Source: Kofleriaceae bacterium (GTDB taxonomy: Bacteria; Myxococcota_A; Polyangia; Haliangiales; Haliangiaceae). Taken from it: 32,676 nt of DNA. Shown here piece by piece: positions 221-30,277 of the stretch; position 1 is the stretch's first letter; every line of letters starts with the position of its first letter. Where the stretch lies: assembly GCA_022842285.1 (NCBI GenBank), contig JALHPV010000047.1, forward strand, positions 1-32,676. The letters run 5' to 3'. Both the position numbers and the translations under genes were made by a program. Under the pieces are notes generated by a model. It made no database searches, had not been told where the DNA came from, and saw nothing but the letters and a program-made list of their open reading frames with translations.

Positions 221-3200
221 TTGATCAACTCCTCGTAGTACCGCTGGATCTGCTCGTCGTAGCCATCGGGTCCCTGCTGCCCCTTCTTCTTCATGGCTTC
301 TAGCAGGTCCTCGCGGAAGCGCTCGGGCGCGCGGTACTCGTCGGCCCCCGGGATGCGAATCGGCTCGTCTCCGACCGAGCCCCCCTCCTGCGCCTGCCGC
401 GCCGCCGAGCGAGCCCGGTCACGCGCCTTCGCGAGAGCATCGGCCGCGGCGCGGGTCGCTTCCCGCGTGCCCGAGGGGTCCTTCGCCTTCATCCGCTCGT
501 CGGCCTGGCCCATCTGCCCGACGGCGCTACCGAGCTTCTTGCCGAGCTCCGTGCCCGTGTCACCGGGCAGCTCGCCCTGGAGCTGCTTCGCCCGCTCGGC
601 CAGCTTCTGCGCCCGGCCCTTGGTCATCGCTTCGCGCCGACGCAGCCGGTCGAGTGACTTCTTGTCCTCGTCGGACATGATCTCATCGGGGCTCGGCGAC
701 AGCGACTGGAGCTCCTCGATGAGATCCTGCGCGATCGGGCGCGCCTTGCCGATGTCCTCGAGCGCGTCCTCGGTCGCGTCGCTCCACTTGCTGGTCGGAT
801 CATCCTCGAGCGCGGCTTCGAGCTCGCCGGCGATCGTGTCGAGGCTCTGCTTGGCCTGCTGCGCCATGCCGAGCGCCTCCGCCAGATCGCCGTCGGCGAC
901 CATCGTCTCCACGTCGGTGAGGCGCCGCTGCACGATATCGAGCTCCTCCTTCGCGAACGGCGTCAGGCCGGTCTCGTCGAGGTCTGCGAGCCGCTTGCGC
1001 AGCTTGTCGACGAGCTGTCCGACCGACTTGCTCGCCTCGCGACGGTGCTCCTTGGCGATCTCGTCGGCCTTGTCCGCGTAGCTCTCGAAGATGCGGTTCG
1101 CCTCGGCCGCGATCTCTTCCTGATCCTGGGCGACGTCGGCGAGCTCGTTCATGACCTCGTCGAGCTTGCGCTGCTCGTCGCTGAAGCGATCACCACGCAT
1201 CTCCGCGAGCGAGCCCTCGAGCGCACTCGAGGCGCGATCGTGTTGCGCACGGCACTGCTCGAGCTTGGCCGCCGCGCCCGCCGCGTCACCGGCGTTCACG
1301 AGCGCGCGCACTTCCTCGAGGCAGTTCGTGCCCTGCGCCGACTCGACCGCGTCGCGGTTCACGTACTGGTCGAGGACGTCCTCGGTCATGCCCTGGCGGT
1401 GCTTGTCGAGCTCCGCGTACGCACGTTCGAGCGCCTTCATCTCGCGCTCGATCTCGGCGAGCAGGCGCGGATCCTTCGACTTGCCGTACTGCTTCAAGAG
1501 ATCGGCGAGGCGCTCCTGGTGGGCCCCGATCTCGTCGGAGATATCGAGCACGCCCTCCATGCGTTCGCGGTCGAGCCAGTCGGCCAGCTCGATCACGTCG
1601 TCTTCGAGCTCGGCGATCATCTTCGTGTCGACGCTCGCGTACGCGCCCTTCGCCGCCGTCTTGCCCTTCGGCACCACGCGCGCCTCGAGATTGGCGAGCT
1701 TCTCGAGTCGCTCGCGCATCTCGTCGAGGGACTTGCGCAGAGCGTCGCTGGCGTGCGGATCCTTCTCGTAGGCGGCACCGACGGTACCGAGCTCGATCAC
1801 GACCTCTCGCAGCTGGCGGCCGAGCTCCTCGCGGTCGGCAGGCTGCGCGTCCGGGGACAGCACGAGTCGCCCCCCCAGGTTCGCGAGGAGCTTCTCGGCG
1901 AGCGCCTCGTGCTTGCCCAGCGTCTCCTCGTGTCGCTCGCGCGGCGAGACGACCTTGAGGTGCAGCTCGCGGGAGCGTCCGATGTTCGGACCCGCGATCG
2001 AGTCGTTGTCCTTGGCCTCGATCCAGTAGCGAACCTCGCCGCCACTCGGCACCTGCACCTCGGCGATGTCCCACAGCACCTTGCCGAGGGCGCGGCCGCC
2101 GGGCGCGACGTCCTGCGATCCGCTGGCGTCGGCGTGTACGGGGACGAGGCTGATCGGTTTCTTGCCGCGGTCCTTGCCGCCTTCCCACACGAGCTCCGCC
2201 GACGTGATGCCGAAGTCGTCCTCGATCACGTATGCGAGCTCGACGCGGCGCAGATTGGTCACGTCGAGCGGTTCGGCGGGCGCCATGAGCTGCACCGTCG
2301 GCGCCTGGTCGGGCTCGGCCTCGATCAAGCGCGGCGTGGTCTCGATGGAGCGCTTGCCGTCGGGCGCGGTGATGGCGAAGCGGTAGCGCGCGGCCCGCTG
2401 GATCACGAACTGCGCGGACAGCCGGAAGTCCGGCTCGAGATTGGGCCCGAGCCGCGGTGCGACCTCGACCTTCACGTCGACGCGCTGCTCGGGCTGACCG
2501 TCGGTCTCGATCACGAGCTCGGCCGACTTCACCGCCACGAGCGCGCGCGCGGCGAGCTTCACCGTCGTTCCGACGAGGCCGCGGACGTCACCCGAGCTGC
2601 TCTCGAGCGAGACCGGCGCGCGCTTGGTGTACGCCGGAAACTCGAGGCGCGCGTTCAGATCTCCGACGAGCGGGACCGCCGACAGCGTCGCGCCGTTGTA
2701 AGGCGCCGGCGGCGCGAACAGGAGTCGCTTCCAGCCTGCGCCGACGAGACCCGGGGCGAGCGCCGCGAGCAACGTCGCCGAACACACGGCCGCGAGGGCC
2801 CAGCGCCGAGCCCGCGTGACCTCGCCGCGATCGAGGAGCCCGTCGGGCGAGATGCCCTGGATGCGTTCGGAGGTCGCCGCCTGCAGGGCCGCGACGAGAT
2901 CGCTCGACGGCGCGCCGGGGCGCGCGGGCGCCTTGGCCAGCTCGACGGCGGAGAGGAGATCGCTCGCCACGTCGCGGCGACGGGAGCCGACCCAGCGCGC
3001 GACCTGCGAGTCACTGCCGTAGCGCCGGCGCGGAGCGACGACACCGAGGATGATCGCACCGATGATCGCCAGCGCACCGGCGAGCCCACCGAGGGTGAGG
3101 ATGGTGAGCGCCATCCGGCGGTTCTCACCGAGGAGCTGCCCGATCAGCGGCAGGACCAGCGCGAGCCCGGCCACGGAGGCGATGCCGTACCCCCACGCCC

Positions 3201-3285
3201 GCCTGGCCTCGTGGCGGTACAGACGCAAGCGTACCCGCCCGAGGAAGCTCGGGATCGCGGTCACCTTCGTCGAAACGGTCGCCAC
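217..3285 (-). CDS. DUF4175-like membrane protein with long coiled coil
   Basis: About 1022 aa from the chosen GTG at 3285. The open frame runs on to 3369, but that would overlap the divergent sigma-factor gene at 3315. Three hydrophobic segments near the N-terminus (about residues 33-51, 58-83 and 162-184) are followed by a periplasmic-looking beta-rich part (about 190-450). The rest is a very long, highly charged Glu/Arg/Ala-rich region (about 470-990) with strong coiled-coil character and few prolines. This matches the large DUF4175-type proteins I associate with proteobacteria and myxobacteria; their role is unknown. The short divergent gap puts its promoter next to that of the ECF sigma factor. 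Its stop overlaps the start of the secreted protein downstream. Start choice is uncertain: no clear Shine-Dalgarno is visible, and GTG 3264 is an alternative. Confidence 0.75.
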
Positions 3286-3314
3286 AGCCGCTAATACGTT
3301 ATAACCGCACGTGG

Positions 3315-4010
3315 ATGAATAAGGCGGGGCACCGAGCGTCCACGCCGACGGATGATGCGCGAGCAACACCCGTTGACGACGCCGACTTGGTGGCTGCGGC
3401 TCGCCGTGGCGATCGAGCGGCGTTCAAGACGCTGTTCGAGCGCTACCACCGTCGGGCCTACGGCCTCGCGTTTGGCGTCGTCCGTCATCCCGAGGATGCG
3501 CTCGACATCGTTCAGGATGCTTTCATCAAGGCTCACAGGTACCTAGACAAGTTCGAGGGCAACTCCAGCTTCTACACCTGGCTCTACCGCATCGTGATGA
3601 ACCTCGCCATCGACCATCTTCGCAAGCACCGCCGGGTCAAGCCCACGGAGCTGGACGAGACGCGCATCCACCCCGACGAGGGGGCCGAGTCGGCGCTAAT
3701 GCCGCGGATCCTCGGTGGAAATCCGGGACGGGCCCTCGCCGACAAGCAGATCCGTCACCGGATCGACCAGGCCCTCGACGAGCTCTCCGAGAATCACCGG
3801 ACCGTCCTTGTCATGCGCGAGCTGGAGGGGCTGTCCTACGAGGACATGGCCAAGGCGGTGGGGTGCTCCAAGGGCACCATCATGTCGCGGCTCTTCCACG
3901 CCCGAAAAAATATGCAGCGCCGGCTGCTCGACCTTATCGACAACCCGTCGCGCGAGCTCCTCGAGGAGCTGGGCGTCGCCCCGGAAGCTGAAGAAGGGAA
4001 GGCGAGCTGA
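3315..4010 (+). CDS. ECF-type RNA polymerase sigma factor (RpoE-like)
   Basis: 231 aa. Region 2 is clear at about residues 22-105: the [19 protein letters not shown] helix, then [14 protein letters not shown] and the -10 recognition part [20 protein letters not shown]. Region 4 is at about 150-205 ([20 protein letters not shown], then the helix-turn-helix [15 protein letters not shown]). There is no region 1.1 or 3, which makes it an extracytoplasmic-function sigma factor. The N-terminal ~20 residues are unconserved-looking, so a slightly later start is possible. Its stop overlaps the next ATG by one base (TGATG). The next gene encodes a single-pass membrane protein, the usual arrangement for a cognate anti-sigma factor. 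A TATAAC at 3300-3305 could be a -10 box but has no convincing -35. Confidence 0.93.
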
Positions 4011-4480
4011 TGGCGCGCCCGGATGACACCGAGGACGACGTCGCCTACGCCGAGCTGGGCGAGATCGTCCGTGCGCGGCTCGAGATCGACGCCGACGAGG
4101 TCGACGCTCGCAAGTTCCACGCGATGTGGCGCGAGATCGACAAGGCGATCGACGAGGAAGCTCCCGCATCGGTGTGGGGACGATTCGTCGCCTGGCTCGA
4201 TCGCCATCGCGGCAACCTCATCACCGGGGCCGTCACCGCCGGGGCTGTCGCCGCGATCGCGATGATGATCCGGCCTGCGCCGACCGTCGTGACGCGCACG
4301 GTGGTGGAGCGCGCATCCGACGGGGCGCTCGACGTGCAGCCGGCCGCGCTGCGCGCACCTCCGGAGATCGAAGATGTGGAGACCCCCGACGGCGAGGCGA
4401 CCGTGATCAACCTCGAAGACGAAGACGGACACACCACCGTGATCTGGGTGACTGCAGCAGATACTGTGGAGGGCATATGA
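4010..4480 (+). CDS. Putative membrane-anchored anti-sigma factor
   Basis: 156 aa with an acidic N-terminal domain (1-66, helical, many Asp/Glu), one transmembrane segment (about 69-88, NLITGAVTAGAVAAIAMMIR) and an acidic C-terminal tail that would be periplasmic. Size, topology and coupling to the ECF sigma gene (one-base overlap) fit an anti-sigma factor that holds the sigma factor at the membrane. The N-terminal domain has no His-x3-Cys-x2-Cys zinc motif; in fact it contains no cysteine. If it is an anti-sigma factor it belongs to a non-ZAS type. The function is inferred from context and topology only; no similarity to a named family was recognised. Confidence 0.65.
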   Translation: MARPDDTEDDVAYAELGEIVRARLEIDADEVDARKFHAMWREIDKAIDEEAPASVWGRFVAWLDRHRGNLITGAVTAGAVAAIAMMIRPAPTVVTRTVVERASDGALDVQPAALRAPPEIEDVETPDGEATVINLEDEDGHTTVIWVTAADTVEGI

Positions 4481-4932
4481 AGGCCCGCCTCGCAGCATGG
4501 GTGGTCGCCGCGCTCGTCGGGGTCACGACGCCCGCGGTCGCGCAGAACGTCACGGTGTCGTGCGACTTCGTCGAGATCAGCGCCACGAACACGGGCACCG
4601 CGTCCGTGGACAAGGCGCTGCCGGAGAAGGTCCAGAAGAAGCTCAAGAAGAAGCCGTTCTCTTCGCAGTGGAAGGTCTTCACGCAGCTCTCGTCGACGTC
4701 CAAGACGCTCGCCAAGAAGAAGCCCGAGACGATCAAGCTGACGCAGGGCAGCGCGAGCGGGACGCTCATCGAGATCGTGGACAAGAGCAAGACGCGGCTG
4801 ACGCTCACGATGGACGACGCCAGCGGGAAGCAGAAGGTCTCTCAGACCTCTCTCATCGAAGGCGGCGATTACACCGTTTTCGTCGACGCGACCAAAGACG
4901 ACGGGCACTTGCTCGCCGTCACCTGTAAGTAG
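4477..4932 (+). CDS. Small secreted Lys-rich protein of the sigma-factor operon
   Basis: 151 aa starting at ATG 4477, which overlaps the previous stop (ATGA) and has a good purine-rich ribosome site (GGAGGG at 4468-4473). A Sec signal peptide covers about residues 1-22 (ending PAVAQ). The mature protein is small, Lys-rich in the middle (KVQKKLKKK), otherwise beta-strand rich, with two cysteines (near the start of the mature part and next to the C-terminus) that could form a disulfide. It is the third member of a coupled sigma/anti-sigma operon and could be its envelope target or signal partner. I do not recognise the family. Confidence 0.8.
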   Translation: MKARLAAWVVAALVGVTTPAVAQNVTVSCDFVEISATNTGTASVDKALPEKVQKKLKKKPFSSQWKVFTQLSSTSKTLAKKKPETIKLTQGSASGTLIEIVDKSKTRLTLTMDDASGKQKVSQTSLIEGGDYTVFVDATKDDGHLLAVTCK

Positions 4933-5000: not shown

Positions 5001-7265
5001 ATGAATCCGGGCGGTACGACGGCAAAGACGGTGCGCAGGCGACCTGCGCGCTGGGTGATTGCCTCGCTCTGTGTGCTGCTCGGGCTCGCGCTGGTCCTGA
5101 CCGTCGTGATCGCGGTCGTGTACCCGCGGGTGGGCGCGTCGAAGATTCGCGAGAAGGTCACGGCGAAGGTCCAGTCGAAGCTGGGGCGCGACGTGCGATT
5201 CGGCTCGGTGGATGTCCGCCTGGGGCACGCAACGATCCGCGGGATGGAGATCTACGGCGAGCTCGACAAGGACCTGCCGCTGATCGTGATCGATCGGATC
5301 GATGTCGACTTCGCGGCGCTCCCATCATTGATCGGGCGCGTGGAGCTGGGCGACGCGACGATCGACGGCGTGACCGTCACGTTGCGCCGCCATGCCGATG
5401 GCCGCGACAACGTGAGCGACATCATCGAGCGGCTGCGCGCCGAGCCGCGCGGTGGTGCTGGCGGTGGCAAGAGCCTGATGCCGCGGTCGATCACGGTCAC
5501 GCACGGCAAGCTGTTCGCCGACGATGCGGTGACGGGGACGACGGCGCTCGTCGAGGATGGCGGCGCGACCTGGAAGCCGGGCGAGCTGATCGCGCAGGGC
5601 CGTAACGTGTCGATGACGACGGTGGCGGCCCCGGCGGCGACCGCGACCGCGCTGACCATCACGAAGCGCAGCGGCCAGCCCCCGCTGGTGGCGATCGAGG
5701 GCGGCGAGCTCCGCGTGCTCGCCGGCCTCTCCCTGACGGGGATCGCGGGCACGGTCGCCTCTGATGCCGCCCAGCCGGGGCAGTACCGCGTCGATGTCGC
5801 GGGAGGCTACGGTGGCGTGCCTGGCAACCTGTGGACCGCGCGCGGTGGCATCGATCCGCAGGCGTTCACGGCGACGATCGATCTCGAGGCGGCGAAGTTT
5901 CAGCTCGACCGCCTCGCACCGATCCTCGCCACGACGCCCGTCGTGGACTACCAGTCGACGTCGGTCGACACCAAGGTGCGCCTGTCGCTCGCGCGCAATG
6001 GCGCGACGTTCGCCGGCGAGATGAACCTGCACGGCCTGAATGTCGGGCACCCCAAGATCGCCGAGAAGGAAGTCCGCGATCTGGATCTCGAGGCCAACGT
6101 CGAGGGGCGCTTCGATCGCGCGACGCGGTCGCTGGTCCTGTCACGTGGTGACTTCAAGGCGCGCAACGTCCCCTTCTCCGTCACCGGCGAGGTCGCGAAG
6201 CCGCGCACGCAGGAGCAAGCGCCGGCTCAGGTCGCGAAGGTCGACGACGATGATGACCAGGCGGTGAAGATCAAGACCGAGGGCCCGGGGGGGATCAAGG
6301 TCCTCAAGATGCACGTCGTGGTGCCACCGGTGGCCTGCCAGACGTTCCTGACGGCGCTCCCCGAGGAGATGGTGCCGTACATGGTCGGCTACCAGATGAC
6401 GGGCATGTTCTCGACGGACATCACCCTCGAGGTCGACTGGAACAACCTCGATGCCACCAAGCTCGGCGGGAGCGTCGGAATTCGGGGGTGCAAGGTCACG
6501 AGCGAGCCGCCGACCTCGCCGCGCCGCCTCCGCAGCGAGTTCGAACACTCGGTCGAGTACGAGGAGGACAAGTTCCGCGAGATCACCGTCGGGCCGACGA
6601 ACCCCGACTTCGTCCCCTACGAGCAGATCTCACCGAACCTCGTGAACTCGATCATGTCGACCGAGGACTCGGCCTTCATGTCTCACCGCGGCTTCATCGT
6701 CTCCGAGTTCCGGAGCGCCCTCGTGAAGGACCTCAAGGCGGGCCGGTTCAAGTACGGCGCGTCGAGCATCACCATGCAGATGGTGAAGAACGTCCTGCTC
6801 TACCGAGACAAGACGCTCATGCGAAAGTTCCAGGAGCTCTTCCTGACGTGGCACGTGGAGAACACCCTCGAGAAGGAGCGCATCCTCGAGATCTACTTCA
6901 ACGTGATCGAGTACGGCCCGAACCTCTACGGCATCGGTCCCGCCGCGAAGTACTACTTCGGCAAGTCCGCCGCCGAGCTCTCGCCGCGCGAGGCCGCGTT
7001 CTTCTCGTCGATCCTGCCGTCGCCGAAGGACCGCCATCGCCAGTACTGCCAGAACGAGCTCTGGAAGTGGTCGGCCGCGAAGATCGACCGCATCCTCGGC
7101 ATCATGCTGAAGCGCAACCGCCTCACGCAGGCCGACTACGACCTCGCCATGGCGACCCCGCTGGTCTTCTACAAGCCCGAGGACGCCGAGCCCGCGAACG
7201 AGTGCATCGCGCGCACGAAGAAGGCCATTCGCGCCGCCCGGGCCACGACGGTGCCCTCGCCCTGA
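5001..7265 (+). CDS. AsmA-like / GT51 peptidoglycan glycosyltransferase fusion
   Basis: 754 aa. A transmembrane anchor lies at about residues 18-41. A beta-rich AsmA/DUF748-like region follows (GRDVRFGSVDVRLGHATIRG, then repeated strand motifs) up to about residue 500. The C-terminal ~220 residues are a family-51 glycosyltransferase: motif EDSAFMSHRG with presumed catalytic Glu555, GASSITMQ at 586-593 (the GxSTITQQ motif), RKFQEL, then KERILEIYFNVIEYG and a YFGK/SPREAAFF region. GT51 enzymes polymerise lipid II into glycan strands on the outer face of the inner membrane. No penicillin-binding transpeptidase follows, so it resembles MtgA with a large AsmA-like insertion between anchor and catalytic domain. 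AsmA-family proteins act in envelope lipid traffic, so the combination is unusual. Confidence 0.85.
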   Translation: MNPGGTTAKTVRRRPARWVIASLCVLLGLALVLTVVIAVVYPRVGASKIREKVTAKVQSKLGRDVRFGSVDVRLGHATIRGMEIYGELDKDLPLIVIDRIDVDFAALPSLIGRVELGDATIDGVTVTLRRHADGRDNVSDIIERLRAEPRGGAGGGKSLMPRSITVTHGKLFADDAVTGTTALVEDGGATWKPGELIAQGRNVSMTTVAAPAATATALTITKRSGQPPLVAIEGGELRVLAGLSLTGIAGTVASDAAQPGQYRVDVAGGYGGVPGNLWTARGGIDPQAFTATIDLEAAKFQLDRLAPILATTPVVDYQSTSVDTKVRLSLARNGATFAGEMNLHGLNVGHPKIAEKEVRDLDLEANVEGRFDRATRSLVLSRGDFKARNVPFSVTGEVAKPRTQEQAPAQVAKVDDDDDQAVKIKTEGPGGIKVLKMHVVVPPVACQTFLTALPEEMVPYMVGYQMTGMFSTDITLEVDWNNLDATKLGGSVGIRGCKVTSEPPTSPRRLRSEFEHSVEYEEDKFREITVGPTNPDFVPYEQISPNLVNSIMSTEDSAFMSHRGFIVSEFRSALVKDLKAGRFKYGASSITMQMVKNVLLYRDKTLMRKFQELFLTWHVENTLEKERILEIYFNVIEYGPNLYGIGPAAKYYFGKSAAELSPREAAFFSSILPSPKDRHRQYCQNELWKWSAAKIDRILGIMLKRNRLTQADYDLAMATPLVFYKPEDAEPANECIARTKKAIRAARATTVPSP

Positions 7266-9075: not shown

Positions 9076-9621
9076 ATGAAAATGGAGTATTCGGAAGTAG
9101 TTCGCGCACGGAGCGTGCGCCGGATGGTCGGCCCCAGCGCGCTGTCGGCGACTGAGCTGTCCCGGGAGACCGGTATCCCGCAGCCAACGTTGTCGCGGTG
9201 GCTGCGGGAGGCGGCTAGCCTTCGATTGGTGAGCAGCAAGCCGACGTCGCCGAGCGAGCCCCCGTCCGCAGACGAAGCCAAGCGACCGCAGGATTGGAGC
9301 CCGCAGGAGCGGATGCAGCTGGTGCTCGATGCCCACAGGCTCGGCGACCAAGAGCTCGGCGAGCTGTTGCGTCAGCGAGGTGTTCATCGCGAACAGTTCG
9401 ACTCGTGGCGCGCCGCGCTCGATGACGCCTTCGCGCAGCCTCGAGCTTCCCGTCGGTCGCCGGAGGGCAAGCGGATTCGCGAGCTGGAACGCGAGGTCGC
9501 GCGCAAGGACAAGGCGCTTGCCGAGACGGCGGCACTGCTCGTACTCCAAAAAAAAGTCCAGCTCCTGTTCCCGAACGGCGTGTACGCGGGCGACGACACG
9601 GACGAGGAGAACGACGAGTGA
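9076..9621 (+). CDS. IS3-family transposase OrfA (DNA-binding subunit)
   Basis: 181 aa. An N-terminal helix-turn-helix lies at about residues 22-45 (LSATELSRETGIPQPTLSRW), as in OrfA proteins that bind the IS ends. A charged helical C-terminal part (KRIRELEREVARKDKALAET) looks like the leucine-zipper-type oligomerisation helix of OrfA. A run of eight A residues at 9548-9555 lies near its end. The stop TGA overlaps the GTG start of OrfB, which is in the -1 frame. Both frames appear intact, so the element may be functional. Confidence 0.9.
   Translation: MKMEYSEVVRARSVRRMVGPSALSATELSRETGIPQPTLSRWLREAASLRLVSSKPTSPSEPPSADEAKRPQDWSPQERMQLVLDAHRLGDQELGELLRQRGVHREQFDSWRAALDDAFAQPRASRRSPEGKRIRELEREVARKDKALAETAALLVLQKKVQLLFPNGVYAGDDTDEENDE
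9549..9555 (+). other. Candidate -1 ribosomal frameshift site (A AAA AAA)
   Basis: In the OrfA frame the codons are CAA AAA AAA GTC, which gives a slippery heptamer A AAA AAA. A -1 shift here continues in the OrfB frame without a stop through to the OrfB GTG at 9618, giving a fused OrfAB product. IS3-family elements commonly make OrfAB this way at A-rich heptamers. A downstream stimulatory structure was not established. Confidence 0.55.
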
Positions 9622-10625
9622 TCCTCGGTTTGATTGCGACCGCGGTGCGCGACGGAGCTACGCAAGCGCGTGCATGCGCCTCGCTCGGCCTCGACCCGCG
9701 TACCGTCCAACGCTGGCAAAAGTGTCCCGACAGCGACGACCTTCGTCGCGGGCCGAAGACACGGCCCGCGAACGCGCTCACGGCGGACGAAGAGGCGAAG
9801 ATCATCGCGCTCTCGACCGCCCCCGAGTTCGTAGGCCTCTCGCCTCACCAGCTCGTGCCCAAGCTCGCCGACATGGCGCTGTATGTCGGCTCTGAGTCGT
9901 CCATCTACCGGGTGCTGCGCCGCCGGAAGCTGCTGCGCCATCGTGACCGGTCTCGGCCGCGGACGCATCGTCGCCCGCGCGAGCTCGTCGCCACGGGTCC
10001 CAACCAAGTCTGGGCCTGGGACATCACCTACCTGCCGTCGGGCGTGCGCGGAAGGTACTGGTACCTGTACGCGATTCTCGACGTGTGGAGTCGCAAGCTG
10101 GTCGGCTGGGCCGTGCACGACGTACAAAGCGACGCGCTCGCGGCCCACCTCATCGACGCGACGTGTGCGCGCGAGGGTGTTGGGCGCGACCAGCTCGCCC
10201 TCCACGCCGACAATGGCGGTGCCATGAAGGGCAGCACGATGCTCGCCAAGCTCGAGCAGCTCGGCGTCATCCCTTCGTTCAGTCGGCCCCGGGTCAGCGA
10301 CGACAATCCGTACCCCGAGGCGCTATTCCGCACGCTCAAGTACCGCTCCGCGTATCCCGACCGCCCCTTCGCGCTCCTCGACGACGCGACGCAGTGGGTC
10401 GCCGCGTTCGTGCGCTGGTACAACGACGACCACCAGCACAGCGGCATCCGGTTCGTAACGCCGAGCCAGCGCCACGCTGGGCTCGACAGCGCGATCCTGG
10501 CGCGGCGCGCGGAGGTCTACCGCGCTGCCAAGCGCCGCACACCGAGCCGCTGGAGCGGCGACATCCGCAACTGCGACGCGATCACGACGGTACGTTTGAA
10601 CCCGGAGCACGGCATCTCGAACTGA
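9618..10625 (+). CDS. IS3-family transposase OrfB (DDE integrase)
   Basis: 335 aa from GTG 9618. An N-terminal helix-turn-helix part (ARACASLGLDPRTVQRWQK) and the HTH_21-like segment (LSPHQLVPKLADMA) precede the integrase core. Catalytic triad: Asp135 (WAWDITYLP), Asp198 (LHADNGGAMKG) and Glu234 (DDNPYPEALFRTLKYR), with exactly 35 residues between the second and third, the DD35E spacing of IS3. It cuts and joins DNA ends during transposition. The stop TGA lies inside the first of two TGACACTCACCG direct repeats. No truncation or missing residue seen. Confidence 0.95.
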   Translation: MILGLIATAVRDGATQARACASLGLDPRTVQRWQKCPDSDDLRRGPKTRPANALTADEEAKIIALSTAPEFVGLSPHQLVPKLADMALYVGSESSIYRVLRRRKLLRHRDRSRPRTHRRPRELVATGPNQVWAWDITYLPSGVRGRYWYLYAILDVWSRKLVGWAVHDVQSDALAAHLIDATCAREGVGRDQLALHADNGGAMKGSTMLAKLEQLGVIPSFSRPRVSDDNPYPEALFRTLKYRSAYPDRPFALLDDATQWVAAFVRWYNDDHQHSGIRFVTPSQRHAGLDSAILARRAEVYRAAKRRTPSRWSGDIRNCDAITTVRLNPEHGISN

Positions 10626-21780: not shown

Positions 21781-21901
21781 CGGACACGCCACGATGTGGC
21801 ATCGGGGACCCGATCGGGGGATATTCCGGGCGTGAGGCGGGTCCCGCGCGGTCCCGAGCTTGCAGAACCAACGCAGCATGTCGCAAGGGGCGCCACGATC
21901 C

Positions 21902-24358
21902 ATGGCCTACGGCTCACCGCCGCCGGTCGCTACGGCGCGACCCCAGAAGCCGGTGCCAGGGAAGCCGGGTAAGCCCGTCGGCAAGGGCAAGCGGCCGGTT
22001 CATCCCGACAAGCGCCCACGCAAGCTCTGGGTCCGCATCATCAAGTGGCTGTTCATCACGGGCCTGATCGGCATGGTCTGCCTGGTCGGCACCGTCGCCT
22101 TTATCTTCTGGATGTACGGGCGCGACCCCAATCTTCCGTCCGAGAAGTCGCTCGCGCAGTACAACCCGAAACAGGTCATCCGCGTCCTCGATGCCAACGA
22201 CCGCGAGGTCGGCGAGCTGTTCGGCCCCGACAAGCGCATCGAGCGCCGGACGTACGTACCGTACGAGAAGATCCCGCGACATGTTGTCGATTGCTTCGTG
22301 GCGGCGGAGGACAACCGCTTCTGGACCCACGGCGGCGTCGACTACTGGGGCATGTTCCGCGCGGCCCTGACGAACATCCGCAAGGGCAAGACGCACGGCG
22401 CCTCGACGATCACGCAGCAGGTGGTGAAGACCTTCCTGCTCACGCCCGAGAAGACCTTCAAGCGGAAGATTCAGGAGGTCATCATCGCGCGCCGGCTCGA
22501 GAAGACGCTGACGAAGGAGCAGATCATGAATCTGTACCTGAATCAGATCTACTTCGGGAACAACCGCTACGGCATCCAGGAAGCGTCGCACTTCTACTTC
22601 GGCAAGGACGTCGCGCAGCTCACGGTGGGGGAGGCCGCCGTCCTCGCCGCGCTCCCGCAGCGCCCCGAGGAGCTCGCGCCGAACAAGCCGAAGAACCAGT
22701 CGGCGGCCAAGGCCCGCCAGATCTACGTGCTGAACCAGATGGTCTCCATGGGGAAGCTCACGCCCGCCGAGGCGCAGAAGTGGATCGACGCGCCCATCCA
22801 GGTCGTGAAGGCCGCCGACGTGAAGAACGAAGCGTCGTCGGAGTGGATCGGTCTCGCGCGTGACGCGCTCGTCGCTGACTTGCTCACGCAGGGCAAGACC
22901 GAGGACGCGCTGAACACGCTCGGTGGCACCGTTCGTACGTCGCTCGACCCGGGCATCCAGGAAGCGGCGCAGCGGGCGCTGCAGAAGGGCCTCCGGGCCG
23001 TCGACAAGCGCCACGAGATCGGGCGTCCGCAGCGCTCGGTGAAGGACGTCAAGGCGGAGATCGCGAAGCTGGCGAAGAAGTTCCCCGGCAAGCTCGTCGG
23101 GATGGATCGCTACGAGGCGGTCGTGACGGCGGTCCACGACAACGACCACGAGCTCGTCGTCGATGCGGGCAACTACCCCGCGTCGATCATGCTCGATGAC
23201 GACGTCGACCTTCGCTTCAACCCGCCCGACGACGCCGGCGTGAAGAAGCAGCCGAGCGAGCGCTTCAAGCCAGGTGACGTCGTCGCGATCGCGGCCGCCA
23301 TCGGCCTGCCGCCCCTCAAGCACTCGCCGAATCGCGTGCAGTTCGCGCCGGGGCCGCAGGGCGCCGTCGTCGTCATCGACGTGAAGACGCGCCGCGTGAA
23401 GGCCCTCGTCGGTGGCTTCCAGACGCGCATCGGCGGCCTCGACCGCGCCACCCAGTCCCGGCGCCAGCCAGGCAGCTCCTTCAAGCCGTTCGTCTACGGT
23501 GCCGGCATCGACAGCCTGCAGTTCACCGCCGGCTCGAAGGTGAACGATGCGCCTGACGCCTACGACGCCTGGCGCCCCAAGAACTACGACAGCAAGTTCG
23601 CTGGCCCGCTGCTCCTCCGCTACGCGCTCTCGAAGTCGATCAACACGATCGCGATCCGGGTCACGGCCATCGTGAAGCCCGAGAACGTGGCCGCCTTTGC
23701 CAAGGCCCTCGGCATCCGCAGCGAGCTCACCCCCGACATGTCGATCTCCCTCGGCTCCAAGGAGGTCACGCCGCTCGAGATGACCAACGCGATCGCCAGC
23801 ATCGCCGCCGGTGGCCAGTACGCACCGCCGCGCTTCATCGAGGCCATCAACGGCAAGCCCGTGCCGGTCGTCCCCGCCGAGCGCGTGATGCGCCCCGACG
23901 CCGCGTGGATCCTCACCAGCATGATGACCTCCGTCGTCACGAGTGGTACCGGTCATCTCGCGAAGTCGGTCGGCGTCCCCATCGCCGGCAAGACCGGCAC
24001 GTCCAACGACGCGCGTGACACCTGGTTCGTGGGCTTCACCCCCGACGTCGCGATCGGGGTCTGGATCGGCTACGACGAGCCGCGCGCGATGGGCAAGGAG
24101 ACCGGCGGCACGACCGCTGTCCCCGTCTTCGTCGATGTCGCCAAGGCGATGAACCTTCCCGCGAAGCAGTTCCCGCGGCCCCCCGGCATCGTCGAGCGCA
24201 AGATCGACAAGCTCACGGGCCTCCTCGCGCCCGAGGGCGCGGCCGCCGATTCCTACGTCAACGAGTACTTCATCGAGGGCACCGCGCCCCTCGAAATCGC
24301 GCCGCTGCCCGACGAGACGACGTCATCGAACGTCTTCGAGAACGAGTACAACGACTAG
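21902..24358 (+). CDS. Class A penicillin-binding protein (PBP1A-like)
   Basis: 818 aa from ATG 21902, chosen for the AAGGGG about 11 nt upstream; TTG 21860 and ATG 21878 are alternatives. A basic Pro/Lys-rich cytoplasmic tail precedes one transmembrane segment (about 47-70). The GT51 domain has Glu136 in AAEDNRFWTHGG, then GASTITQQ and KEQIMNLYLNQIYFG. The transpeptidase has SSFK (Ser525-Lys528), SIN (579-581) and KTGT (697-700). It makes glycan strands and crosslinks their peptides on the periplasmic side. It starts a packed run that leads through sensor genes to dapA and dapB. Confidence 0.96.
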   Translation: MAYGSPPPVATARPQKPVPGKPGKPVGKGKRPVHPDKRPRKLWVRIIKWLFITGLIGMVCLVGTVAFIFWMYGRDPNLPSEKSLAQYNPKQVIRVLDANDREVGELFGPDKRIERRTYVPYEKIPRHVVDCFVAAEDNRFWTHGGVDYWGMFRAALTNIRKGKTHGASTITQQVVKTFLLTPEKTFKRKIQEVIIARRLEKTLTKEQIMNLYLNQIYFGNNRYGIQEASHFYFGKDVAQLTVGEAAVLAALPQRPEELAPNKPKNQSAAKARQIYVLNQMVSMGKLTPAEAQKWIDAPIQVVKAADVKNEASSEWIGLARDALVADLLTQGKTEDALNTLGGTVRTSLDPGIQEAAQRALQKGLRAVDKRHEIGRPQRSVKDVKAEIAKLAKKFPGKLVGMDRYEAVVTAVHDNDHELVVDAGNYPASIMLDDDVDLRFNPPDDAGVKKQPSERFKPGDVVAIAAAIGLPPLKHSPNRVQFAPGPQGAVVVIDVKTRRVKALVGGFQTRIGGLDRATQSRRQPGSSFKPFVYGAGIDSLQFTAGSKVNDAPDAYDAWRPKNYDSKFAGPLLLRYALSKSINTIAIRVTAIVKPENVAAFAKALGIRSELTPDMSISLGSKEVTPLEMTNAIASIAAGGQYAPPRFIEAINGKPVPVVPAERVMRPDAAWILTSMMTSVVTSGTGHLAKSVGVPIAGKTGTSNDARDTWFVGFTPDVAIGVWIGYDEPRAMGKETGGTTAVPVFVDVAKAMNLPAKQFPRPPGIVERKIDKLTGLLAPEGAAADSYVNEYFIEGTAPLEIAPLPDETTSSNVFENEYND

Positions 24359-28613: not shown

Positions 28614-29552
28614 ATGAAGCCCGGAACGATCGATCCCACCGCGTCGCCATCCGGCGCCGCTTCGCCGGCAGCCCGCCACCGGCTCGAGGGCTGCCTCACT
28701 GCAATCGTCACCCCGTTCCGCGACGGCAAGGTCGACTTCGACAAGCTCGCGCAGCTGGTCGACTGGCAGATCGACCAAGGCATCGACGGCATCGTCGCCG
28801 TGGGCACCACCGGCGAGTCGGCGACCCTCGACGTCGAGGAGCATGTCGCCGTCATCGCCGCTGTCGTCAAGGCGGCGAAGGGGCGGGTCCCCGTGGTTGC
28901 CGGCGCGGGCGGCAACGCGACGACAGAGGCCCTGGAGTTGACCAAGGCCTCCGAGCAGGCCGGCGCCGATGCGCTCCTGCACGTCACGCCTTACTACAAC
29001 CGGCCCTCGCAGGAGGGGTTGTTCCGCCACTTCGAGGCCATCGCGAAGTCGACGAAGCTCCCCATCATTCTCTACAACGTGCCCACGCGCACCGCGTGTG
29101 ACCTCTCGACCGATGTCGTCGTGCGCCTCGCCGACTTCCCGAACGTCGTCGGCATCAAGGATGCGACGGGCAACCTCGTGCGCGGCTCGGACCTCGTCGC
29201 GCGCGTGGGCGATCGCATGGCCGTCCTCTCCGGCGATGACGGCACCGCGTTCCCGCTCTACGCCGTGGGGGGCCGCGGCGTCATCTCCGTCGTCTCCAAC
29301 GTCGCTCCGCGCGCCATGAGTGACATGTGGGACGCTGCCGCCGCCGGTGACTGGGAGCGCGCCCGCAAGCGCCACCACGAGCTCCGCGTCCTCTCGGCGA
29401 TGCTCTTCAACGAGCCGAGCCCCGCGCCCACCAAGGCCGCGCTCGCGCTCATGAACCGCTGCTCGACGGAGCTTCGCCTGCCCCTCGTCCCGGCGTCGGC
29501 GGGCCTCACCGACCAGCTCCGCGCCGAGCTCAAGACCCTGGGCCTCTTGTGA
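28614..29552 (+). CDS. dapA: 4-hydroxy-tetrahydrodipicolinate synthase
   Basis: 312 aa, about 20 residues longer than usual because of an N-terminal Pro/Ser/Ala extension. ATG 28614 has GAGGA at 28602-28606. It condenses pyruvate and aspartate semialdehyde, the first step to meso-diaminopimelate and lysine. Catalytic Lys182 (GIKDATG) forms the Schiff base; Tyr154 (IILYNVPTRT) and the GTTGES loop (64-69) are present. It lies 16 bp after the kinase gene and its stop overlaps dapB. Confidence 0.96.
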   Translation: MKPGTIDPTASPSGAASPAARHRLEGCLTAIVTPFRDGKVDFDKLAQLVDWQIDQGIDGIVAVGTTGESATLDVEEHVAVIAAVVKAAKGRVPVVAGAGGNATTEALELTKASEQAGADALLHVTPYYNRPSQEGLFRHFEAIAKSTKLPIILYNVPTRTACDLSTDVVVRLADFPNVVGIKDATGNLVRGSDLVARVGDRMAVLSGDDGTAFPLYAVGGRGVISVVSNVAPRAMSDMWDAAAAGDWERARKRHHELRVLSAMLFNEPSPAPTKAALALMNRCSTELRLPLVPASAGLTDQLRAELKTLGLL

Positions 29553-30277
29553 CCCGCGTCTGCGTCCTCGGCCCCTCCGGCCGCATGGGCAAGGCCGTCA
29601 TCGAGGCCGCGACCGCGACCAACCTGACCATCAGCGCGCGCGTCGACCTCGGCGACGACATGGCCGCTGGCCTCGCCGCCAGCGACGTCTACATCGACTT
29701 CACGACCCCCGTCGCCACGCGCGCTGCCGCGGCGCTCGCCTTCACCCGCAAGCTGCCCGCCGTCGTCGGCACCACCGGCCTCGGCCCCGACGACGAGAAG
29801 GCTCTCGCCGCCCTCGCCGAGGTCGCGCCGATCGTCGTCGCCGCCAACTTCTCCCTCGGCGTGAACCTCCTGCTGGGCCTCGCCCGCCAAGCGGCTCGCA
29901 TCCTCGGCCCCGACTGGGACGCCGAGGTCGTCGAGACCCACCACAAGAACAAGCGCGATGCTCCGTCGGGCACCGCGCTCGCGATCGCCCGCGCCATCGC
30001 CGCCGGTCACGGCTCCGACTACGACACCGTGAAGCGCCACACCCGCGACGGCGACGTCGGCCCGCGCCCCCGCGGCGAGATCGGCGTGTCGACGGTCCGC
30101 GGCGGCGACGTCATCGGCGAGCACACCGCCACGTTCTTCGGCGCCGCCGAGCGCATCGAGCTCTCGCACCGCGCGACCTCTCGCACGATCTTTGCCGCCG
30201 GCGCCCTCCGCGCCGCCGCCTGGGTCGTCACGCAGCCGCCCGGCCGCTACGACATGCAGGCCGTCCTCGGCCTGTAG
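29549..30277 (+). CDS. dapB: 4-hydroxy-tetrahydrodipicolinate reductase
   Basis: 242 aa from GTG 29549 (overlaps the dapA stop, GTGA). The nucleotide motif GPSGRMG (8-14) binds NAD(P)H. The substrate motif is ETHHKNKRDAPSGTA (129-143), with His131 and Lys135 at the positions of E. coli His159 and Lys163. It reduces the dapA product in the diaminopimelate pathway. Full length, no missing key residue. Last gene of the run starting at 21902. Confidence 0.96.
   Translation: MTRVCVLGPSGRMGKAVIEAATATNLTISARVDLGDDMAAGLAASDVYIDFTTPVATRAAAALAFTRKLPAVVGTTGLGPDDEKALAALAEVAPIVVAANFSLGVNLLLGLARQAARILGPDWDAEVVETHHKNKRDAPSGTALAIARAIAAGHGSDYDTVKRHTRDGDVGPRPRGEIGVSTVRGGDVIGEHTATFFGAAERIELSHRATSRTIFAAGALRAAAWVVTQPPGRYDMQAVLGL

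Follow-up and report, generated by a model that had tools for sequence, protein, structure and literature searches.

An AsmA-like region joined to a GT51 glycosyltransferase domain in a widespread bacterial protein family

What does an AsmA-like region do when it stands in one chain with a GT51 glycosyltransferase domain? In the usual view, GT51 enzymes draw lipid II directly out of the inner membrane, and AsmA-like proteins carry phospholipids to the outer membrane. The question was raised by a gene (Table 1) in a 32,676-nt stretch of DNA from a Kofleriaceae bacterium (GCA_022842285.1, JALHPV010000047.1, positions 1-32,676, forward strand), the whole of which is called the window below. The protein encoded by this gene, the window protein, is almost certainly a GT51 enzyme of an AsmA-GT51 architecture. 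With such a one-chain family, the cargo of AsmA-type grooves can be addressed directly, as can the question of whether wall synthesis and envelope lipid flow are coupled physically.

Domain make-up and predicted fold

In Pfam searches, a Transgly domain (PF00912) was found at residues 532-680 of the window protein (157.3 bits vs a cut-off of 27, E 3.6e-46), and DUF748 (PF05359) was found in two stretches at residues 11-185 (63.0 bits vs a cut-off of 50). AsmA (PF05170) and YhdP were below their cut-offs, with 20.0 bits vs 29.8 and 15.8 vs 46, respectively. No transpeptidase (PF00905) was detected by Pfam in the window protein, nor was it among the families listed for 53 homologues. A DUF748/AsmA-type beta region of approximately 460 residues lies between a single membrane helix and the GT51 domain. 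A preliminary description of the gene had named an anchor, an AsmA-like beta region and a complete GT51 domain without a transpeptidase, and this layout is borne out by Pfam, by two structure models, by fold comparison and by the homologues. The protein resembles AsmA-like, DUF748, TamB, YhdP and YdbH proteins in having an N-terminal membrane helix followed by a chorein-N-type beta region, but it differs from AsmA-like proteins in its GT51 end and does not reach the length of the models for DUF748 (1037 positions) or YhdP (1224).

The residue E555 and the motifs GASSITMQ (residues 586-593) and RKFQEL (residues 608-613) were found at the positions that the preliminary description had given. Conservation was read from an alignment (A4) of 53 sequences, consisting of the window protein and 52 of the 80 loci obtained in the pattern scan given below, with truncated, frame-split and near-duplicate loci excluded. 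Fourteen GT51 positions (E555, D556, H562, G564, S588, Q593, K596, N597, R608, K609, E612, K625, E630 and N634) were each identical in 53/53 aligned homologues from several phyla. E555 and E612 correspond to the two catalytic glutamates described in the GT51 literature. Because these 14 positions are identical in all of the homologues, the fusion protein is neither a chance product nor an assembly artefact. The window is one of the 550 contigs of a draft genome, which could have favored a chimaera or mis-assembly of two genes, but the identical fusion recurs in independently assembled genomes, including those of named Sphingobacterium isolates; this recurrence refutes a mis-assembly, and its probability is negligible. 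The cysteines C446, C497, C683 and C735 were all present in 34 of the 53 rows, which are of the Myxococcota type, and all absent in the other 19. At the level of sequence, this all-or-none pattern suggests that disulfides may form in the Myxococcota-type branch.

The whole-protein AlphaFold model built on this alignment had a mean predicted local distance difference test score (pLDDT) of 91.1 and a predicted template modelling score (pTM) of 0.80. It consisted of a helix at residues 16-61, more than 20 antiparallel strands over residues 69-530 and, C-terminal to these, the GT51 domain, which is helical. The GT51 part was aligned to the Aquifex PBP1a glycosyltransferase 3nb6 with Z 19.7 and a root-mean-square deviation (rmsd) of 2.5 over 183/183 residues, and to Staphylococcus aureus MtgA 3vmq with Z 20.1 and rmsd 3.3 over 216 residues. 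In the model, these matches show that the GT51 domain has the MtgA/PBP1-type GT51 fold.

The beta region was also modelled alone (residues 16-531) on 42 of the 53 alignment rows (A6), with pLDDT 91.3 and pTM 0.81, and the Foldseek candidates of this N-terminal model were re-aligned with VIA. The top-ranking matches were Vps13 6cbc (Z 9.6, rmsd 5.2, 174 residues aligned) and one chain from 9cap, the LPD-3 complex (Z 9.4, rmsd 8.3, 196 residues aligned), and Atg2 6a9e was found lower in the ranking (Z 7.8, rmsd 4.1, 121 residues aligned). LPD-3, like Vps13 and Atg2, is a eukaryotic bridge-like lipid-transfer protein. All three matches span approximately the first 230 model residues, and their N-terminal segments match the predicted N-terminal fold of the window protein, which differs from them in being far shorter and in carrying an enzyme. 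No sequence match to Vps13, Atg2 or LPD-3 was obtained with the window protein or with its N-terminal profile. The rows ranked between the lipid-transfer matches were barrels and curved sheets over the later part of the model. A specific known fold for the C-terminal beta region was rejected, the matches being just porin, BamA, TamA and similar curved sheets with Z below 9, which are read as a common arrangement.

At E <= 1, the N-terminal profile found a single sequence in the PDB, full-length TamB 9xdc (E 0.0059, profile positions 5-161). Matches of the single sequence to HIV protease obtained with phmmer (E 0.03-1) were taken as chance. Among solved AsmA-family structures in the PDB, none was found by sequence beyond TamB and none by fold; the missing fold matches are no evidence against kinship. 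The TamB profile match and the lipid-transfer fold matches agree with the chorein-N assignment published for AsmA and TamB (PMC6791001). Pfam, the profile and the fold all bear out the AsmA-like assignment for approximately the N-terminal 230 residues. The preliminary description had called the N-terminal part AsmA-like as a whole, and structure prediction upholds this for the chorein-type first 230 or so residues; the remaining curved sheet is without a specific match.

Hydropathy alternated along the strands of the model with a mean difference of 2.12, compared to 1.28 in shuffled sequences (standard deviation 0.20; 0/5000 shuffles as high), and the alternation was strong mainly in the C-terminal half of the beta region. 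The VIA alignments of full-length MtgA and PBP1b begin at model residues approximately 341-450. The beta region might end at the place where MtgA and PBP1b meet the membrane, which these ranges alone do not show.

Distribution and origin of the fusion

In a search with the whole protein, matches at E <= 1e-30, a threshold that by itself admits GT51-only matches, were found in 54 of 56 genomes (the window's own genome and its relatives). In most genomes of the genus and family to which the window belongs, the top match spanned most of the protein. A profile of the bridging segment between the beta region and GT51 (A5, residues 432-540) recognizes the fusion family in other genomes; it found matches in 67 of the 112 genomes of the phylum sample and in 11 of the 61 genomes of the Bacteroidota sample, one of them weak (E 6.6e-4). 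A pattern scan with two short peptide patterns, from which the best 80 loci were taken, gave at least 80 loci in named genomes of Myxococcota, Bacteroidota (including many Sphingobacterium isolates), Acidobacteriota, one Krumholzibacteriia and a few under broader labels; this list of phyla is a lower bound and is biased to near relatives. In the aligned members, Transgly was found in 53/53, DUF748 in 37, YhdP in 14, AsmA in 11 and YdbH in 1 at E <= 0.01. Nine distant members and the paralogue of the window's own genome were scanned as single sequences, and five of these (L112, L117, L118, L093 and L116) gave no AsmA-clan match even at E <= 1.

The preliminary description had considered the architecture unusual. 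Within the window's phylum it is common, and it occurs in at least three other phyla. No description of it was found in the open-licence literature, a search that left subscription papers and preprints outside, and the accessible parts of PMC12419801 and PMC10861873 do not describe it. GT51 and AsmA-type proteins are each known; what was not found described in that literature is their widespread joint architecture.

Nine genomes reached through the loci contained 2-7 GT51 genes each (36 in total), with the fused copy beside MtgA-sized or class A-sized genes. The MtgA-sized genes in these genomes are frames of 235-306 residues and hence, unlike the fusion, lack the AsmA-type region; in several of the genomes they coexist with fused genes. 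The window's own genome has eight GT51 genes. One of them (C153; L006, positions 100-2103) is a second, diverged AsmA-GT51 paralogue, with a weak DUF748 match (E 4.5e-5, below the Pfam cut-off) and a Transgly match that, unlike that of the window protein, reaches position 177.

When a maximum-likelihood tree was built from 53 GT51 domains, those of the fusion proteins of all phyla formed one clade (96/86), including L006 and L136, the latter being the same gene as L112. This clade joined MtgA and L007 of the window's own genome, apart from the branch of class A penicillin-binding proteins (PBPs) (100/98). The sequences fit a single old fusion to an MtgA-like enzyme, and the AsmA-GT51 family is widespread and probably old. 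MtgA, the nearest branch, is similar in its single GT51 domain, its one membrane anchor and the absence of a transpeptidase. Identity with ordinary MtgA was ruled out by the architecture and by the NCBIfam equivalog TIGR02070, which the window protein did not reach (158.1 vs a cut-off of 182.65). Class A PBPs share the GT51 domain, but the window protein has no transpeptidase and belongs to a separate branch of the tree; a class A PBP that had lost its transpeptidase was not favored, as the tree sets the fused domains next to MtgA.

The GT51 domain could alternatively act on another undecaprenyl-linked sugar and make a glycan other than that of the wall. The C-terminal edge of the domain does differ in the fused copies, in which the Transgly match ended at profile position 156-160 of 178 in 8/9 cases (172 in the ninth), whereas the 27 other GT51 matches of the nine genomes extended to position 174-178. 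However, the motif residues are kept, MtgA is the nearest branch, and class A PBP genes are among the neighbors, and a non-wall glycan is considered very unlikely.

Possible roles of the beta region

A role can be proposed from what computation shows: the domain make-up, catalytic residues that are intact, the fold as predicted, a single fused clade and conserved gene neighbors. The protein would be a peptidoglycan glycosyltransferase that is anchored in the inner membrane, works in the periplasm and belongs to a separate, probably old branch of GT51. A putative AsmA/chorein-type lipid groove would separate its membrane anchor from its catalytic domain. The GT51 domain would polymerize lipid II. 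The groove may pick up lipid II by its undecaprenyl tail at the outer leaflet of the inner membrane or, alternatively, lead released undecaprenyl pyrophosphate back, and this handling would let the enzyme work at or nearer the wall. Other enzymes would do the cross-linking, for example the class A PBP encoded 3' of the gene in some lineages. As the most likely reading, we tentatively propose that the groove handles substrate or product, namely the prenyl tail of lipid II or the undecaprenyl carrier. A further step, that lipid II travels out of the inner membrane through a bridge-like groove to be polymerized by GT51 away from the bilayer and beside the wall, is doubtful; the notion that such a groove-fed polymerase would be a third wall-polymerase architecture of diderm bacteria is part of that step and equally doubtful.

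Several observations weigh against lipid handling by the groove. Known GT51 enzymes take lipid II directly from the membrane through a jaw subdomain (PMC6053601), so that no groove is needed. A predicted fold cannot by itself show transport. Foldseek alone gave no match to the N-terminal model at E <= 0.001, and the Z values of 8-9.6 are modest for matches to lipid-transfer proteins. Strands 76-254, which are the part with the best lipid-transfer fold match, alternate weakly in hydropathy (differences mostly below 1). Moreover, the distant Acidobacteriota members L112, L117 and L118 have a shorter N-terminal region without an AsmA-clan match. An AsmA-type fold is thus supported, but a continuous hydrophobic groove only partly so.

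Nearly as likely as groove handling is a role of the beta region as a rigid spacer or docking arm that positions GT51 or binds partners and moves no lipid. Candidate docking partners would be the class A PBP and outer-membrane activators. Non-catalytic domains of other GT51 proteins are docking sites, such as UB2H of PBP1b. The weak hydropathy alternation of the N-terminal half is in keeping with a spacer, the bridging segment is conserved across phyla as would be expected of a mechanical joint, and the class A PBPs encoded nearby would be natural partners. On the other hand, the matches of the N-terminal part are specifically to lipid-transfer proteins of the chorein type and to DUF748, and such a fold would be costly for a plain spacer.

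The protein could also be primarily an AsmA-type phospholipid conduit to the outer membrane, with GT51 coupling or anchoring the conduit to the growing wall. This is improbable: every GT51 motif position that was checked is conserved in 53/53 homologues, which makes selection for catalysis likely. In addition, the window protein terminates in GT51 and has no TamB-domain match in Pfam, and the class A PBP neighbors point to wall synthesis. Under the proposed polymerase role, the wall polymerases counted in Myxococcota and in part of Bacteroidota and Acidobacteriota would comprise one class that likely has a role of its own.

Gene neighborhood

Table 1. Coordinates of the AsmA-GT51 gene, the parts of its product and the conserved upstream genes in the window
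Feature	Position	Strand	Details
AsmA-GT51 fusion gene	5001..7265	+	ATG start, 754 aa, no internal stop; homologues
N-terminal membrane-anchor helix	5046..5120	+	Residues ~16-40; hydrophobic stretch 17-40; helix 16-61 by DSSP in the model
Chorein-N/DUF748-type part	5121..5720	+	Residues ~41-240; DUF748, Vps13/LPD-3/Atg2 fold matches, TamB profile match
Beta-region continuation	5721..6200	+	Residues ~241-400; predicted extended curved antiparallel sheet, pLDDT mostly >90
Acidic low-confidence loop	6201..6284	+	Residues 401-428, pLDDT 51-74; absent from most homologues
Bridging segment, beta region to GT51	6294..6620	+	Residues 432-540; conserved, with C446 and C497
GT51 glycosyltransferase domain	6594..7040	+	Residues 532-680; catalytic E555 and E612; PF00912, fold
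C-terminal helical extension	7041..7262	+	Residues 681-754, with C683 and C735
ECF-type sigma factor gene	3315..4010	+	Sigma70_r2/r4_2 (Pfam); conserved upstream neighbor
Single-transmembrane anti-sigma-like protein gene	4010..4480	+	Start overlaps the sigma stop
Small secreted protein gene	4477..4932	+	Signal peptide, two conserved cysteines

The usual row in Myxococcota consists of genes for an extracytoplasmic function (ECF) sigma factor, a membrane anti-sigma-like protein and a small secreted two-cysteine protein, with the AsmA-GT51 gene last. A sigma match was found upstream on the same strand in 31 of 45 loci (L039-L083); 11 of the 14 loci without a match have less than 1.5 kb of upstream DNA, which gives 31/34 among those with enough DNA. 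The identity was 49-79% in 22 of the 31 loci and 36-39% in nine. As these nine are no better than the next ECF paralogue of the window's own genome (40%), they could be other ECF factors. At the 35 loci L084-L118, of which three have little upstream DNA, no sigma match was found.

The products of the two middle genes can be aligned between lineages. The anti-sigma-like product has one membrane helix and a conserved tail in an alignment of 11 chosen loci. In most relatives its N-terminus is of the DGEL type, as in zinc-finger anti-sigma factors; this feature is absent from the copy in the window, which is shorter there, and one weak zf-HC2 match (E 0.0026) was below the cut-off. In 10 chosen loci, the small secreted protein begins like a signal peptide, and two of its cysteines are conserved; Pfam gave no match above the cut-off, CopC being below it (E 0.0016). 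The gene order suggests that the sigma factor regulates the AsmA-GT51 gene. In Myxococcota, the ECF sigma/anti-sigma pair would tune the supply of the fusion protein to the state of the envelope, and the pair may form a stress system linked to the wall.

In 11 loci, a transpeptidase match of a class A PBP was found downstream on the same strand; 34 loci have more than 2.5 kb of downstream DNA by the computed open reading frame ends. In a group of six loci, some of these ends were picked wrongly. In this six-locus group, the class A PBP gene lies close behind the AsmA-GT51 gene, as checked with Pfam in L069, L071 and L079, with a gap of 58 bp in L069. In L049, L055, L063, L075 and L081, it lies within several kb. 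The class A PBP genes downstream tie the AsmA-GT51 gene to wall synthesis. The two genes occupy 5971-10753 of L069, AsmA-GT51 first and then class A PBP on the same strand, and the same order is seen in L071 and L079.

Further genes were recorded in the window. A class A PBP gene (Transgly and Transpeptidase) lies at 21860-24358 on the same strand, 14.6 kb downstream of the fusion gene. Adjoining dapA- and dapB-like genes at 28614-30277 (DHDPS, DapB_N/DapB_C) feed the synthesis of wall precursors. A 749-residue frame at 1045-3294 had no Pfam match, and its translation matches upstream DNA of many relatives; a longer frame overlaps it on the minus strand, leaving two candidate genes there. An insertion-sequence-like pair of frames (HTH_Tnp_1 and the rve integrase core) was found at 9076-10625.
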